Source: Comamonas granuli NBRC 101663
Lineage (GTDB): Bacteria; Pseudomonadota; Gammaproteobacteria; Burkholderiales; Burkholderiaceae_C
DNA length: 64,000 nucleotides
Direction of reading: 5' to 3'
Assembly (NCBI RefSeq): GCF_000739995.1
Contig: NZ_BBJX01000006.1
Location: 124,001 to 188,000 of the forward strand
In this document: in pieces, positions 49,459-54,656 of the stretch
Position numbering within the stretch: position 1 is the first letter of the stretch
Layout of the letters: each line of letters begins with the position of its first letter
Translations under genes and position numbers: made by a program
The notes under the pieces: generated by a model
What the model saw: the letters and a program-made list of their open reading frames with translations, nothing else
Told to the model about the DNA's origin: nothing
Databases searched by the model: none

Positions 49459-50589
49459 TCAGGCGTCCAGCAGGATGCGCAGCATGCGGCGCAGCGGTTC
49501 GGCGGCGCCCCACAGCAACTGGTCGCCGATGGTGAAGGCGCCCACGTACTCCGGGCCCATGGCGAGCTTGCGGATGCGGCCCACGGGGATGGTCAGCGTG
49601 CCCGTGACGGCCACGGGCGTGAGGTCCTGGATGGTGGCCTCGCGCGTGTTCGGCACGACCTTGGCCCAGGGGTTGTCGGCGGCGATCATGGCCTCGATGT
49701 CGGCCACGGGCACGTCTTTCTTCAGCTTGAAGGTCAGGGCCTGGCTGTGGCAGCGCATGGCGCCGATGCGCACGCAAAAGCCGTCCACGGGAATGGCGGC
49801 CGTGCCAAAGCCCTCGCCCTGGCCCAGGATCTTGTTGGTCTCGGCCATGCCCTTCCACTCTTCGCGGCTCATGCCGTTGCCCAGGTCCTTGTCGATCCAG
49901 GGAATGAGCGAGCCGCCCAGCGGCACGCCGAAGTTGGCGGTTTCGGCGCCGCTGAGGGCGCGCTGCTTGGCGATGACCTTGCGGTCGATTTCCAGGATGG
50001 CGCTCTTGGGGTCGTCGAGCAGGGCCTTCACTTCGGCGTTGAGGGTGCCGAACTGCGTCAGCAGCTCGCGCATGTGCTGCGCGCCGCCGCCGCTGGCGGC
50101 CTGGTAGGTTTGCGTGCTCATCCACTCGACCAGGCCCGCCTTGTACAGCGCGCCCACGCCCATGAGCATGCAGCTCACGGTGCAGTTGCCGCCGATCCAG
50201 TTCCTGCCGCCCTTGGCCAGGGCGTTCCGGATGACCGGCATGTTCACGGGATCGAGCACGATGACGGCGTCGTCCTTCATGCGCAGGGTGGAGGCGGCAT
50301 CGATCCAGTGGCCGTTCCAGCCCGCAGCGCGCAGCTTGGGGAACACTTCGGTGGTGTAGTCGCCGCCCTGGCAGGAGATGATGATCTCGCAGCGCTTCAG
50401 GGCATCGATATTGAAGGCGTCCTGCAGCGTGGTTTCGTTCCTGGCCTGCGCGGGAGCCTGGCCGCCGGCGTTGGAGGTGGAGAAGAACAGGGGCTCGATC
50501 AGGTCGAAATCGCCTTCGGCCTGCATGCGGTCCATCAATACCGAGCCGACCATGCCGCGCCAGCCCACCAGACCTACCAACTTGCTCAT
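49459..50589 (-). CDS. asd: Aspartate-semialdehyde dehydrogenase
   Basis: Reduces aspartyl phosphate to aspartate semialdehyde, the branch point to lysine/diaminopimelate, methionine, threonine and isoleucine. The 376-residue protein starts [20 protein letters not shown], has the catalytic Cys in [24 protein letters not shown] and the active-site His region [16 protein letters not shown]. It is the E. coli-like Gram-negative form. The ATG at 50589 has AAAGGG nine bases upstream; a TTG two codons earlier is less likely. leuB, which normally precedes asd in Burkholderiales, is absent; a leader peptide and hairpins lie upstream instead. Confidence 0.96.
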
Positions 50590-50609
50590 TTTCAACGCCC
50601 TTTCAAGTT

Positions 50610-50643
50610 AAAAAACAGTACGCACGCGACCGGCGGCTGTTTT
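50610..50643 (-). terminator. Terminator-like hairpin in the asd leader
   Basis: On the minus strand AAAACAG pairs with CTGTTTT, with CGC/GCG inside, and the 3' arm runs into six T. It lies 21-54 bases before the asd ATG, after the leader peptide stop. Confidence 0.6.
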
Positions 50644-50647
50644 CCTC

Positions 50648-50693
50648 GCCCCGGCTCGTCTGGGCCAGGGAGGGCGCACGACGATGCCGGAGC
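50648..50693 (-). promoter_or_regulatory. Strong hairpin directly after the leader peptide
   Basis: GCTCCGGC(A)TCGTC pairs with GACGAGCCGGGGC: 13 bp with one bulge and one G-T pair, loop of about 19. It begins four bases after the leader peptide stop, where a terminating ribosome would cover its 5' arm. Confidence 0.55.
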
Positions 50694-50697
50694 TGGA

Positions 50698-50799
50698 TCA
50701 GCCCTTAATGGTCGTGGTTTTGGTGATGGTTGCGCGCGCAGCCAGACCTGCCAGGCAGGCAGGGGCCAGGTTCGGGGTGAACAGTGGGGCGGCAAACAT
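50698..50799 (-). CDS. Candidate Thr/Ile-rich leader peptide for asd
   Basis: A 33-codon reading frame whose last 12 residues are RATITKTTTIKG: five Thr and two Ile within nine codons, right before the stop. This is the pattern of the E. coli thr operon leader peptide (Thr/Ile codons control an aspartate-family operon), though unrelated in sequence. The -10 box TACAAT ends nine bases before the ATG at 50799, so the message could be leaderless; another ATG three codons earlier (50808) directly abuts the -10. Too short for routine gene finders. Not a described gene to my knowledge; translation is an inference. Confidence 0.5.
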   Translation of the reverse strand: MFAAPLFTPNLAPACLAGLAARATITKTTTIKG

Positions 50800-50808
50800 A
50801 TCGCGCAT

Positions 50809-50814
50809 ATTGTA
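50809..50814 (-). promoter_or_regulatory. -10 box of the asd leader transcript
   Basis: TACAAT on the minus strand, with a weak CTGCCC -35 candidate 17 bp upstream. Placed in the gap between ilvD (ends 50880) and asd. Confidence 0.5.
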
Positions 50815-50879
50815 ATGCAAAGCGGGTATTGGGCAGGCTGCGCGCCGCAGGCCTTGCGGCTGGGGCGGCAGGGCAGTGC

Positions 50880-52592
50880 CTACCGGGCGGCGGCATGGGG
50901 CGCAAAGTCGTCGAGTACGGCGCCCTTGCTGGCGCTGGAGGCGTTGAAGGCGAACTTGGCCTGCACGCCGCGCGTGTAGCGCGGGGCAGGGGGCTGCCAG
51001 AGTGCGCGCCGGTGGGCGAGCTCGGCCTCGTCCACGTTCAGTTGCAGCAGCAGCCGGTGCGCGTCGATGGTGATGCTGTCGCCCTCGTGCACCAGGGCGA
51101 TGGTGCCGCCCACATAGGCCTCGGGCGCCACGTGGCCCACGACCATGCCCCAGGTGCCGCCCGAGAAGCGCCCGTCGGTGACCAGGCCCACGCTCTCGCC
51201 CAGACCCTGGCCCACCAGTGCGCTGGTGGGCGCCAGCATCTCGGGCATGCCCGGCCCGCCCTTGGGGCCCAGGTAGCGCAGCACCACCACATCGCCCGCG
51301 CGGATGCGGCCCGCCAGGATGGCCTGCAGGGCCGAGGGTTCGTCGTCGAACACGCGCGCCGGGCCGGTGATGGCGGGGTTCTTGAGCCCTGTGATCTTGG
51401 CCACCGCCCCCTCGGGGCTGAGATTGCCCTTGAGGATGGCCAAATGGCCCTGGGCATACAGGGGCTGGGTGATGGGGCGGATCACGTCCTGGTCGGCGCG
51501 CGGCTGGTCGGGAACGTCCTTGAGGGCCTCGGCGATGGTCTGGCCGGTGATGGTCATGCAGTCGCCGTGCAGCAGGCCGGCGTTGAGCAGGATCTTCATC
51601 ACCTGCGGGATGCCGCCGGCGCGGTGCAGGTCGATGGCGAGGTGCTTGCCGCTGGGCTTGAGGTCGCAAATCACCGGCACCTTGCGGCGCATGCGCTCGA
51701 AGTCGTCGATGCTCCACGGCACGTCCGCCGCATGGGCAATGGCCAGGAAGTGCAGCACGGCATTGGTCGAGCCGCCCACGGCCATGATCACGGCGACGGC
51801 GTTCTCGATGGACTGGCGCGTGACGATGTCGCGCGGCTTGCGGTCGTGCCGGATGGCGTCGATCAGCACCCGGGCCGATTCCCGGGCGGAATCGACCTTC
51901 TCCTGGTGCTCGTTGGCCATGGTGGAGGAGTAGGGCAGGCTCATGCCCAGCGCCTCGAAGGCGCTGCTCATGGTGTTGGCCGTGTACATGCCGCCGCAGG
52001 AGCCGGTGCCGGGGATGGCGTGCCGTTCGATGTCCTGGAGCTGCTGGTCGCTGATCTTGCCTGCCGCGTTCTCGCCCACGGCCTCGAAGACGCTCACGAT
52101 GTTGAGGTCGCAGCCGTGCAGGCACCCGGGCAGGATGGTGCCGCCGTACACATAGATGCTCGGCACGTTGGCGCGCAGCATGCCCATCATGCCGCCGGGC
52201 ATGTTCTTGTCGCAGCCGCCGATGACCACGCAGCCATCCATCCACTGGCCCTGCACGCAGGTCTCCACGCAGTCGGCAATCACCTCGCGGCTCACCAGGC
52301 TGTACTTCATGCCCTCGGTGCCCATGGCCATGCCGTCGGAGATCGTGGGCGTGCCAAAGGTCTGCGGATTGCCGCCGGCGGCGCGTATGCCTTCCACGGC
52401 GGCATCGCACAGCTTTTGCAGACCGCTGTTGCACGGCGTGATGGTGCTGTGGCCGTTGGCCACGCCGACCATGGGCTTGTCGAAGTCGGCGGCGGTATAG
52501 CCCATGCCGTAGTACATGGAGCGGTTGGGCGCGCGCTCCTTGCCTTGCGTGATGTGGGCGGAGCGGCGGTTCAGGGGCAGGGAATCCGTCAT
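50880..52592 (-). CDS. ilvD: Dihydroxy-acid dehydratase, short class
   Basis: Dehydrates dihydroxyisovalerate and dihydroxymethylvalerate in valine, isoleucine and leucine synthesis. The 570-residue protein has [20 protein letters not shown] at the start, the cluster Cys motifs [10 protein letters not shown] and [31 protein letters not shown] and [20 protein letters not shown]. It is of the plant/mycobacterial class, usually a [2Fe-2S] enzyme more stable to oxygen than the E. coli type. Head to head with the second ilvD, 207 bp apart. Confidence 0.94.
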
Positions 52593-52799
52593 GGCGGTCT
52601 CGGGCAGTGCAGGCGCAGCCAGTGTAGGGCGCGGCGCAGGGCGGCGGCGCCATGCCCCTGGCGCCGTCGGGGTGGGGCTGCGACATAATCGGCCGGTTTG
52701 CCCCGGGCGCCGCTCAAGAGGCGGCGCGCGGCCATGCGCCGTGGCCCTGGAAATGGAAGGGCCGGTTTTCTTTTCCAGACACCTTTTTTCCGTCCCACG
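52593..52799. promoter_or_regulatory. Divergent promoter region between two ilvD genes
   Basis: A CATAAT -10-like box for the plus-strand ilvD lies at 52684-52689. In its leader, GGCCC/GGGCC (52743-52763) followed by GGTTTTCTTTT forms a terminator-like hairpin, possibly an attenuator. I see no branched-chain-rich leader peptide. No clear operator was found. Confidence 0.4.
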
Positions 52800-54656
52800 A
52801 TGCCCGCCTACCGTTCCAAGACCTCCACTGCCGGCCGCAATATGGCCGGCGCCCGCGCCCTGTGGCGCGCCACCGGCATGCAGGATGCCGACTTCCAGAA
52901 GCCCATCATCGCGGTGGTCAACTCCTTCACCCAGTTTGTGCCCGGCCACGTGCACTTGAAGGACCTGGGGCAACTCGTCGCGCGCGAGATCGAGGCCGCC
53001 GGCGGCGTGGCCAAGGAATTCAACACCATTGCCGTGGACGACGGCATCGCCATGGGCCACGACGGCATGCTCTACTCGCTGCCCAGCCGCGACGTGATTG
53101 CCGACAGCGTGGAATACATGGTCAACGCGCACTGCGCCGACGCCATGGTGTGCATCTCCAACTGCGACAAGATCACCCCCGGCATGCTCATGGCCGCGAT
53201 GCGCCTGAACATCCCCGTGATCTTCGTCTCGGGCGGCCCCATGGAGGCGGGCAAGGTGCAACTGGCCACCCCGGGCACCAAGACCATCCACATGAAAAAG
53301 CTCGACCTGGTGGACGCCATGGTCATGGCCGTGGACAGTGCGGTGAGCGAGGCCGACATCGCCGAGGTCGAGCGCAACGCCTGTCCCACCTGCGGCTCGT
53401 GCTCGGGCATGTTCACCGCCAATTCCATGAACTGCCTGACCGAGGCCATGGGCCTGTCGCTGCCCGGCAATGGCACCACGCTGGCCACGCACGCCGACCG
53501 CGAGCAATTGTTCCAGCGCGCCGGCCGGCGCATCGTGGAGCTGGCGCGCCAGTACTACGAGGGCGAGGACGAGAGCATCCTGCCGCGCTCGGTGGGTTTC
53601 AAGGCCTTCGAGAACGCCATGACGCTGGACATCGCCATGGGCGGCTCGACCAACACCATCCTGCACCTGCTGGCCATCGCGCAGGAAGCGGAGATCGACT
53701 TCACCATGGCGGACATCGACCGCCTCTCGCGCAGCGTACCCCAGTTGTGCAAGGTGGCGCCCAATACCGACAAGTACCACATCGAGGACGTGCACCGCGC
53801 GGGCGGCATCGTGGCCATCCTGGGAGAGCTCGAGCGCGCGGGCAAGCTGCACACCGACGTGCCCACGGTGCACGCCAGGACCCTGGGCGAGGCCATCGCG
53901 CAATGGGACATCACGCGCACGCAGGATGAGGCCGTGCACACCTTCTTCAAGGCCGGCCCCGGCGGCGTACCCACGCAAAAGGCCTTCAGCCAGGCCAGCC
54001 GCTGGCCCAGCCTGGACCTGGACCGCGCGCAGGGCTGCATCCGCTCCATCGAGCACGCCTTCAGCCTGGAAGGCGGCCTGGCCGTGCTCAAGGGCAACAT
54101 CGCCGTCGACGGCTGCGTGGTCAAGACCGCGGGCGTGGACGAATCCATCCTGGTGTTCGAGGGCACGGCCCATGTCACCGAGTCGCAGGACGAGGCCGTG
54201 GAGCACATCCTCAACGACCAGGTGAAGGCCGGCGACGTGGTCATCGTGCGCTACGAGGGCCCCAAGGGCGGCCCCGGCATGCAGGAAATGCTCTACCCCA
54301 CCAGCTACATCAAGAGCAAGGGCCTGGGCAAGGCCTGCGCACTGCTGACCGACGGGCGCTTCTCCGGCGGCACCTCGGGCCTGTCCATCGGCCACTGCTC
54401 GCCCGAGGCGGCGGCCGGCGGCGCCATCGGCCTGGTGCAGAACGGCGACAAGATCCGCATCGACATCCCCAACCGCAGCATCAACGTGCTGGTGAGCGAC
54501 GAGGAACTGGCGCGCCGCCGCGCCGCGCAGGACGCCAAGGGCTGGAAGCCGGCCCAGCCGCGCCCGCGCAAGGTGTCGGCCGCGCTCAAGGCCTACGCCA
54601 TGCTGGTGACCAGCGCCGACAAGGGCGCGGTGCGCGACCTCTCGCTGCTCGACTGA
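52800..54656 (+). CDS. ilvD: Dihydroxy-acid dehydratase, E. coli type
   Basis: Same reaction as the neighbour but a different subclass. The 618-residue protein starts [20 protein letters not shown], with cluster motifs [10 protein letters not shown] and [37 protein letters not shown] and [20 protein letters not shown]. Length and motifs match E. coli IlvD, an oxygen-sensitive [4Fe-4S] enzyme. The start ATG at 52800 follows a T-rich leader without a good Shine-Dalgarno. Followed by a strong terminator. Confidence 0.95.

Follow-up and report, generated by a model that had tools for sequence, protein, structure and literature searches.

In Comamonas granuli NBRC 101663, asd, the gene for aspartate-semialdehyde dehydrogenase, is probably under ribosome-mediated attenuation, with the charging of the tRNAs for Thr, Ile, and, presumably, Lys as the signal sensed. 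The model is based on sequence, conservation, complementarity, some co-variation, and RNA folds predicted with and without masking. With good confidence, we also propose that LeuB itself serves as the leader peptide in 54 of the 117 genera sampled from the family. In these genera, a Thr/Ile/Lys tail past the end of the enzyme would be the ribosome-read sensor of an intercistronic asd attenuator. The tail and a free leaderless leader would have been swapped in evolution with the RNA switch kept, and Thr, Ile, and Lys would be sensed together.

The window, i.e., the whole stretch of 64,000 nucleotides that was analysed, carries asd on its minus strand. The gene is identified by the family model TIGR01745 (607 bits vs a cut-off of 403). 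The features of the locus, in the direction of transcription, are:

50809 to 50814, minus strand: -10-like hexamer TACAAT, a putative leader promoter, 9 nt upstream of the leader ATG
50698 to 50799, minus strand: leader open reading frame MFAAPLFTPNLAPACLAGLAARATITKTTTIKG, 33 codons plus TGA (ATG at 50799-50797, TGA at 50700-50698)
50701 to 50730, minus strand: candidate sensor codons Thr-Ile-Thr-Lys-Thr-Thr-Thr-Ile-Lys-Gly (TITKTTTIKG), a conserved run
50680 to 50693, minus strand: segment 1 (GCTCCGGC-A-TCGTC, with a bulged A), which begins 4 nt past the stop and is the partner of segment 3
50661 to 50679, minus strand: loop with segment 2, in which GCGCCCU at 50671-50677 is complementary to the asd Shine-Dalgarno (SD) region
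50648 to 50660, minus strand: segment 3 (GACGAGCCGGGGC), which pairs with segment 1 and, in the predicted OFF fold, with CCCTGGC of the loop
50610 to 50643, minus strand: AAAACAG/CTGTTTT hairpin (arms 50643-50637 and 50618-50612) with six T at 50615-50610, found in both predicted folds
50595 to 50601, minus strand: segment 4 (AGGGCGU), the asd SD region and predicted OFF partner of segment 2
49459 to 50589, minus strand: asd, the proposed regulated gene (ATG at 50589-50587)

The -10 box, the 33-codon frame, the hairpin after its stop, the six-T hairpin, and asd had been proposed by a first-pass annotation of the window, and all are confirmed at their minus-strand sites. Its description of the last ten codons as rich in Thr and Ile is borne out, and two Lys codons have to be added to the run. 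Among 1369 stretches of ten stop-terminated codons on both strands of the window, only the asd leader reaches eight or more T/I/K codons (it has 9), and the runner-up has 7. The exact motif TCGTCGTGCGCCC occurs a single time in the organism's own genome. Folding of the 213-nt leader, a check the annotation had suggested, gives z = -2.9, with 2 of 200 shuffles equally stable. The leader stop is separated from asd by 108 nt.

An ilvD gene precedes the asd leader on the same strand. The only full-length close leuB match in the own genome is on another contig. The annotation had noted the absence of leuB beside asd and argued from it for a private control device. This argument is not right because relatives with an adjacent leuB share the device, either in a leader of its own placed between the two genes or in the C-terminal tail of LeuB. 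The window also contains two differing ilvD-type dihydroxy-acid dehydratase genes head to head, at 50883-52574 (minus strand, PRK00911-type) and 52710-54653 (plus strand, PRK12448-type), and the first of the two is the one that directly precedes the asd leader.

Conservation was assessed in samples of different breadth. The asd upstream regions from genome contigs contributed 80 loci, kept out of at least 593. The genus sample covered 26 genomes, the own one included. For the order, 300 genomes were searched, and the upstream loci comprise the best 30 plus 76 later stretches, from about 100 of the 300 genomes. The family sample consisted of 120 genomes, one per genus, of which 117 were used and three with a split or broken asd were left out. 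The 262 loci overlap in part, as some genomes were hit by several of the samples. The loci were sorted into class A (LeuB tail), B (leuB plus a separate leader), C (a separate leader without leuB upstream), and D (without the run). The rule gave 60, 66, 55, and 80 loci, respectively, with L019 too short. By hand, 17 loci with weaker runs were added (16 to A, 1 to B) and L020 and L244 were set aside, which resulted in final classes of 76, 65, 55, and 63 loci and 3 unclassed.

A T/I/K run before a stop codon upstream of asd is present in 181 of the 262 loci by rule and in 196 after hand inspection, and in these 196 the stop lies 68-169 nt from asd. Counting one locus per genus (n = 117), 54 genera have a LeuB tail (14 assigned by hand), 43 have a separate leader (25 with and 18 without leuB upstream), 19 have neither, and 1 was set aside. 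Ile or Thr is found at codon -3 in 116, at -4 in 118, at -5 in 114, and at -6 in 116 of 120 separate-leader loci. The other two reading frames of the run encode mostly P/R and H/D, showing that the signal is frame-specific. A length of 33 codons was counted for 65 of 108 relatives, a number biased toward 33 by the choice of the ATG nearest to that length. At the sequence level, the leader is a short coding stretch with codons for pathway products near its end, and its translation is presumed. By the annotation's own criterion, a lack of conservation of the run or frame in close relatives would have refuted it, and both are conserved there. Its core claim of a Thr/Ile codon-reading attenuator is strongly supported by conservation of the -10 box, of the run and its frame, of the place of the stop, and of the RNA structure.

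Outside the family, runs occur in five of nine loci of family f31 (L121, L123, L132, L133, and L249), and L126, L247, L248, and L250 of the same family are without a run. In family f13, both loci read have one. The f13 separate leaders end in IKRTTTIITKTVMKG (L284) and ITTIITKKTKTIILV (L285) and show another hairpin order; they are possibly an independent attenuator. No run was seen in the remaining 58 order-level loci read. In L332, a stretch 254 nt upstream reaches the rule threshold and was judged not to be such a run. Within the genus, five congeners (L100-L104, from G003, G016, G001, G022, and G015) have an Asd that is only ~70 percent identical and sits on a long branch. Four of the five retain the leader run, and the fifth, L101, has the weak LeuB tail MAQTTQG. 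In these congeners, the asd coding sequence was apparently replaced and the control region left as it was.

Where leuB lies directly before asd, LeuB often extends beyond its usual end (..MGDAVVAAL) and stops right before the RNA element, with tails such as TKTITKG, TTTTKTIKS, and SGKTTTTSITTS. The tail is located beyond the usual end of the enzyme, since the closest solved relative of the query LeuB, 4iwh/4xxv (363 residues), reaches only to query residue 355, short of the tail, and LeuB of the own genome ends in ..MGDAVVKALG. Among the LeuB matches listed, none aligns past residue 357 of the 362 of the query. A fixed rule applied to the 200 loci with leuB finds tail and element together in 64, the tail only in 9, the element only in 6, and neither in 121 (Fisher p 5e-35). 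With one locus per genus, the corresponding counts are 47, 5, 4, and 40 (p 7e-17); both tests treat the loci as independent. At least four of the nine tail-only loci (L025, L068, L074, and L081) have a hairpin variant that the motif rule missed.

The 73 tails are 7-23 residues long and consist of 33.5 percent Thr, 20.7 percent Lys, and 16.2 percent Ile, with 0.8 percent Met and 0.5 percent Asn. Third codon positions vary among 62 distinct tails: Thr is encoded by ACC (169), ACG (35), ACA (11), and ACT (2), Ile by ATC (47) and ATT (56), and Lys by AAA (62) and AAG (74). The LeuB tail behaves like a leader peptide fused to an enzyme. In a quick and weakly resolved Asd tree, the tail class changes at least twice on well-supported branches and 14 times by parsimony. 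Given these supported changes, tail and separate leader have probably replaced each other in evolution. The longest LeuB tail in this set, with 23 residues, belongs to L070 (Roseateles noduli) and has an A/V/G-rich spacer before the T/I/K run. The contigs of L052 and L025 are labelled Akkermansia muciniphila and Singulisphaera, and their asd groups inside Burkholderiales; these bins look mislabelled or contaminated.

The separate leaders look leaderless or nearly so, with a predicted mRNA start at or a few bases before the ATG. In 100 of 108 distinct separate-leader loci, a hexamer that matches TATAAT at five of six positions ends 6-9 nt upstream of the leader ATG, which was picked by its distance from the stop alone (nearest 33 codons). 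At six other spacings, the same match is found in 0-2 of the 108. The -35 side is weak, as a simple scan of 50300-51300 called no sigma-70 promoter in the window.

Downstream of the stop, two alternative helices are predicted, 1:3 between segments 1 and 3 and 2:4 between segments 2 and 4. In the window, 1:3 is the 13-bp hairpin with one bulged A that starts 4 nt past the leader stop. The first-pass annotation had found this hairpin and treated it as a side feature; it is now the proposed ON structure. Where segment 1 was recognised, it starts 3-6 nt past the stop in 177 of 188 loci. The 8 other loci of the 196 are absent from the 2:4 energy, helix, masking, and register-free tests. A test that used neither a motif nor a selection of loci covered all 97 one-per-genus loci with a run. 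The 24 nt that follow the stop form a helix with the next 60 nt that averages 9.5-10.7 bp, and in 58 of the 97 it has p of 0.05 or below vs shuffles. Pairing of 1:3 holds in 98.8 percent of the 410 cells of 41 SD-type loci and in 18-49 percent when the register is slid; the first figure applies to the more uniform loci because the alignment was chosen by hand. All three alignments were hand-chosen (A1, 41 of 63 candidate loci; A2, 18 of 21; A3, 40). In the SD-type loci, 1:3 has one double-change pair, which was matched in 384 of 500 column shuffles, and no more further pair types than shuffled columns (496 of 500). The double changes carry no signal above the shuffles because the stem hardly varies.

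MAFFT misregistered the loop motif between types, and 2:4 was therefore counted register-free and not on A1. In window-type loci, where the loop reads xCGCCC and the SD reads GGGCGy, x and y form a standard pair in 66 of 71 distinct loci (GU 51, UA 11, AU 3, GC 1). Where the SD is AGGCGC (8 loci), the loop is GCGCC, as in most others, in 7 of 8, and GUGCC in L058. Segment 4 is the asd SD in window-type loci. In Rubrivivax-type, Roseateles-type, and f31 loci, it lies elsewhere and its sequence differs strongly, with complementarity kept, as in the diverged 2/4 pairs CUGGACCCC/GGGGUCCGG, CACAAACCC/GGGUUUGUG, and CUUCCCCGC/GCGGGGAAG. Own segments of 27 loci score a mean of 24.6 vs 19.1 (sd 0.7) for swapped ones, a difference reached in 0 of 20000 permutations; this result is not blind, as the loop motifs were chosen after the pairings had been seen. 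For 8 of these 27 loci no foreign partner pairs better, and L153 is a clear exception with 21 better ones. Contiguous 2:4 helices have p of 0.05 or below vs shuffled downstream sequence in 30 of 94 loci (mean z 1.2-1.7 by class). Allowing interior loops, the interaction energy has a mean z of -1.0 to -1.2 vs shuffles. The own energy differs from the swapped one in class A (-16.7 vs -14.1), with no separation in B (-15.9 vs -15.8) or C (-17.1 vs -17.0). Prediction and co-variation point to mutually exclusive downstream structures, and the energy comparison does not support them for classes B and C. The proposed rival of 1:3 is 2:4, the pairing between the loop and the asd SD region, which the first-pass annotation had overlooked.

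The specificity of the arrangement was assessed with R1, a covariance model of the run and 1:3. In the 26 genus genomes, R1 matches directly upstream of asd in 23 at E 4e-18 or better and in one (L101) at 2e-8; there is none in G013 or G024, and no other match in the genus is below E 0.049. The 300 order genomes gave 29 matches at E up to 0.05. Ten of these are at asd and represent all ten family genomes. Outside the family, R1 matches at asd in G289 of f31 (4.7e-4) and G037 of f13 (0.025), and it missed the other f31 leaders. The 17 order matches elsewhere are led by one in G145 (2.3e-4), and the three inspected (L346, L348, and L350) are inside unrelated coding sequence.

Asd, through its product aspartate semialdehyde, supplies the synthesis of Lys, Met, Thr, and Ile. 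Of these amino acids, the run encodes Thr, Ile, and Lys, and Met is almost absent from it. In the proposed mechanism, the ribosome would load directly onto the leaderless leader mRNA. Going by the usual ribosome footprint, a ribosome that waits at codon -3 should leave most of segment 1 free, and one at the stop should cover it. Codon -3 is the last Thr or Ile codon in 166 of 196 loci, so that segment 1 would be free under a stalled ribosome and covered under a terminating one. When Thr, Ile, or Lys is short, the ribosome would stall in the run, 1:3 would form during RNA synthesis, segment 2 would be held in the loop, and the asd SD would stay open (ON). When they are ample, the ribosome would reach the stop, 4 nt before segment 1, cover that segment, and block 1:3, and GCGCCCU of segment 2 would then pair with AGGGCGU of segment 4, the asd SD (OFF). 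In relatives, a separate leader or the final 7-23 leuB codons would feed the same switch, the sensor in the second case being the ribosomes that finish LeuB. Transcription start, translation, stalling, the direction of control, the translational read-out in the window, and the role of Lys are what we infer from the sequence and the folds.

Folding of the post-stop RNA of the window is consistent with this scheme. The unmasked RNA is predicted to form 1:3 with the SD mostly open, and when its first 8, 12, or 15 nt are removed to mimic a ribosome at the stop, GCGCCC(U) pairs with the SD AGGGCGU. Masking the first 14 nt lowers the unpaired fraction of the SD from 0.66 to 0.24 and raises the 2:4 pairs from 0.03 to 7.3, and a control mask of equal length elsewhere leaves 0.62 and 0.22, respectively. 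Since masking segment 1 pairs GCGCCCU with the asd SD, starvation should keep asd on. Over 90 loci, masking adds more than one 2:4 pair in 52 and lowers 2:4 pairing in 6, and SD access goes down in 27 and up in 45. Among the 41 separate-leader loci, masking reduces SD openness in 22 and increases it in 9, whereas among the 49 LeuB-tail loci it reduces SD openness in only 5 and increases it in 36. Predicted folding thus supports SD closure for loci of the window type; for the LeuB-tail loci taken together, it does not. The LeuB-tail loci would need another read-out because their SD access mostly rises on masking. Even unmasked, they favour 2:4 at equilibrium (on average 7.5 vs 2.5 pairs), and the folding order must therefore matter.

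Another read-out for the same sensor would be classical transcription attenuation, with premature termination at a T-rich hairpin before asd as the OFF state, after the manner of the E. coli thr leader. This is a less likely explanation. The AAAACAG/CTGTTTT hairpin with its six T favours termination in the window, where the first-pass annotation had correctly located it. As a switched terminator it is unlikely, since it is present in both predicted states and would not be switched by the ribosome, and SD sequestration fits better. A terminator scan of 50300-51300 called none, and the predicted OFF structure of the window is not an intrinsic terminator with a U-tract. In some Roseateles-type relatives (L184, GGGUUUGUUUUUU; L178; and L179), segment 4 is followed by U, which makes 2:4 itself terminator-like there, and these loci may terminate transcription. 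The Rubrivivax-type and f31 loci, on the other hand, have no long U-tract after 2:4.

Explanations without amino-acid sensing fare worse. It is improbable that the run is merely an unstructured stretch, with ribosome passage as such opening or closing the asd start by translational coupling. The A/C-rich run is indeed mostly unpaired in the predicted fold of the window, as such coupling would have it, but other ANN codons would be equally unstructured, and yet those for Thr, Ile, and Lys predominate, as the rarity of Asn and Met in the tails illustrates. The varying third positions in the tails and the frame-specific signal also argue against it. Less credible still is the reading of the LeuB tail as a protein feature for stability or oligomerisation with an incidental codon bias. 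The tail does extend a conserved enzyme and is translated with it, but it co-occurs with the RNA element, varies in length, and is absent where a separate leader exists: at least three T/I/K residues are found in the LeuB tail of 74 of 76 class A loci (the run was the criterion for this class, and 16 of the 76 were assigned by hand) and in 0 of 65 in B and 0 of 57 in D. A chance reading frame beside chance hairpins has practically no probability left, being refuted by the conservation of the run, the association of LeuB tail and element, the R1 matches, the -10 spacing, and the 1:3 helix. The observation of a leader is correct and not due to chance.

The preferred reading, a codon-reading attenuator, can be compared with known systems. 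In the E. coli thr attenuator (thrL, Rfam Thr_leader), a short open reading frame with a Thr/Ile run before its stop and competing hairpins controls an aspartate-family pathway. The asd leader shares the Thr/Ile run just before the stop, the competing hairpins, and the pathway. It differs from thrL in that 50300-51300 has no match to Thr_leader in Rfam, asd and not thrABC would be controlled, Lys codons are included, and the leader looks leaderless; its OFF state in the window is predicted to close the SD and has no U-tailed terminator, and many relatives have the end of LeuB as their leader. In erm-type translational attenuators, a stalled ribosome likewise decides the opening of a downstream SD, but the erm stall is antibiotic-dependent and that of the asd leader would follow amino-acid supply. 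In the E. coli ampC attenuator, too, the regulatory signal sits where a preceding gene ends, in the frd operon, but it is not known to have a run of amino-acid regulatory codons. The leader peTrpL, which is of the Trp type, has its start codon at the transcription start; the asd leader resembles it as a proteobacterial attenuator leader that would have the same build, with Thr/Ile/Lys in place of Trp. One paper describes peTrpL as an attenuator leader peptide of Sinorhizobium (PMC7298713).

A search of Rfam with 50300-51300 at E up to 10 returned no leader family and three unrelated sub-threshold matches. The asd RNA motif RF01732 is also a structured RNA named after asd; it is listed for Lactobacillales only in the part of Weinberg 2010 available (PMC2864571), and its covariance model has no match in 50300-51300 at E up to 10. 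Full-text literature, in which few subscription papers are covered, yielded neither a Thr/Ile attenuator of asd in betaproteobacteria nor an enzyme tail acting as a leader peptide. The main text of a Burkholderia cenocepacia start-site paper (PMC4603805) makes no mention of asd, leader peptides, or attenuation, and the accessible portions of PMC8632094 and PMC4833913 contain nothing on asd leaders. A Burkholderiales-1 candidate motif is named without an Rfam number in a table of Weinberg 2010 (PMC2864571). The asd leader would be a new form of ribosome-mediated attenuation and not a member of the thr-leader family.

For many Burkholderiales, the model would mean codon-reading control of a branch-point enzyme of the aspartate family, and it would explain the odd C-terminal tail of LeuB in many genera. 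The LeuB tail, the leader between leuB and asd, and the free leader form a natural series in which to follow how attenuators arise and move. It also makes two ideas testable: that a full-length enzyme can act as an attenuator leader, and that the read-out of one RNA switch may be SD closure in one species and termination in another.
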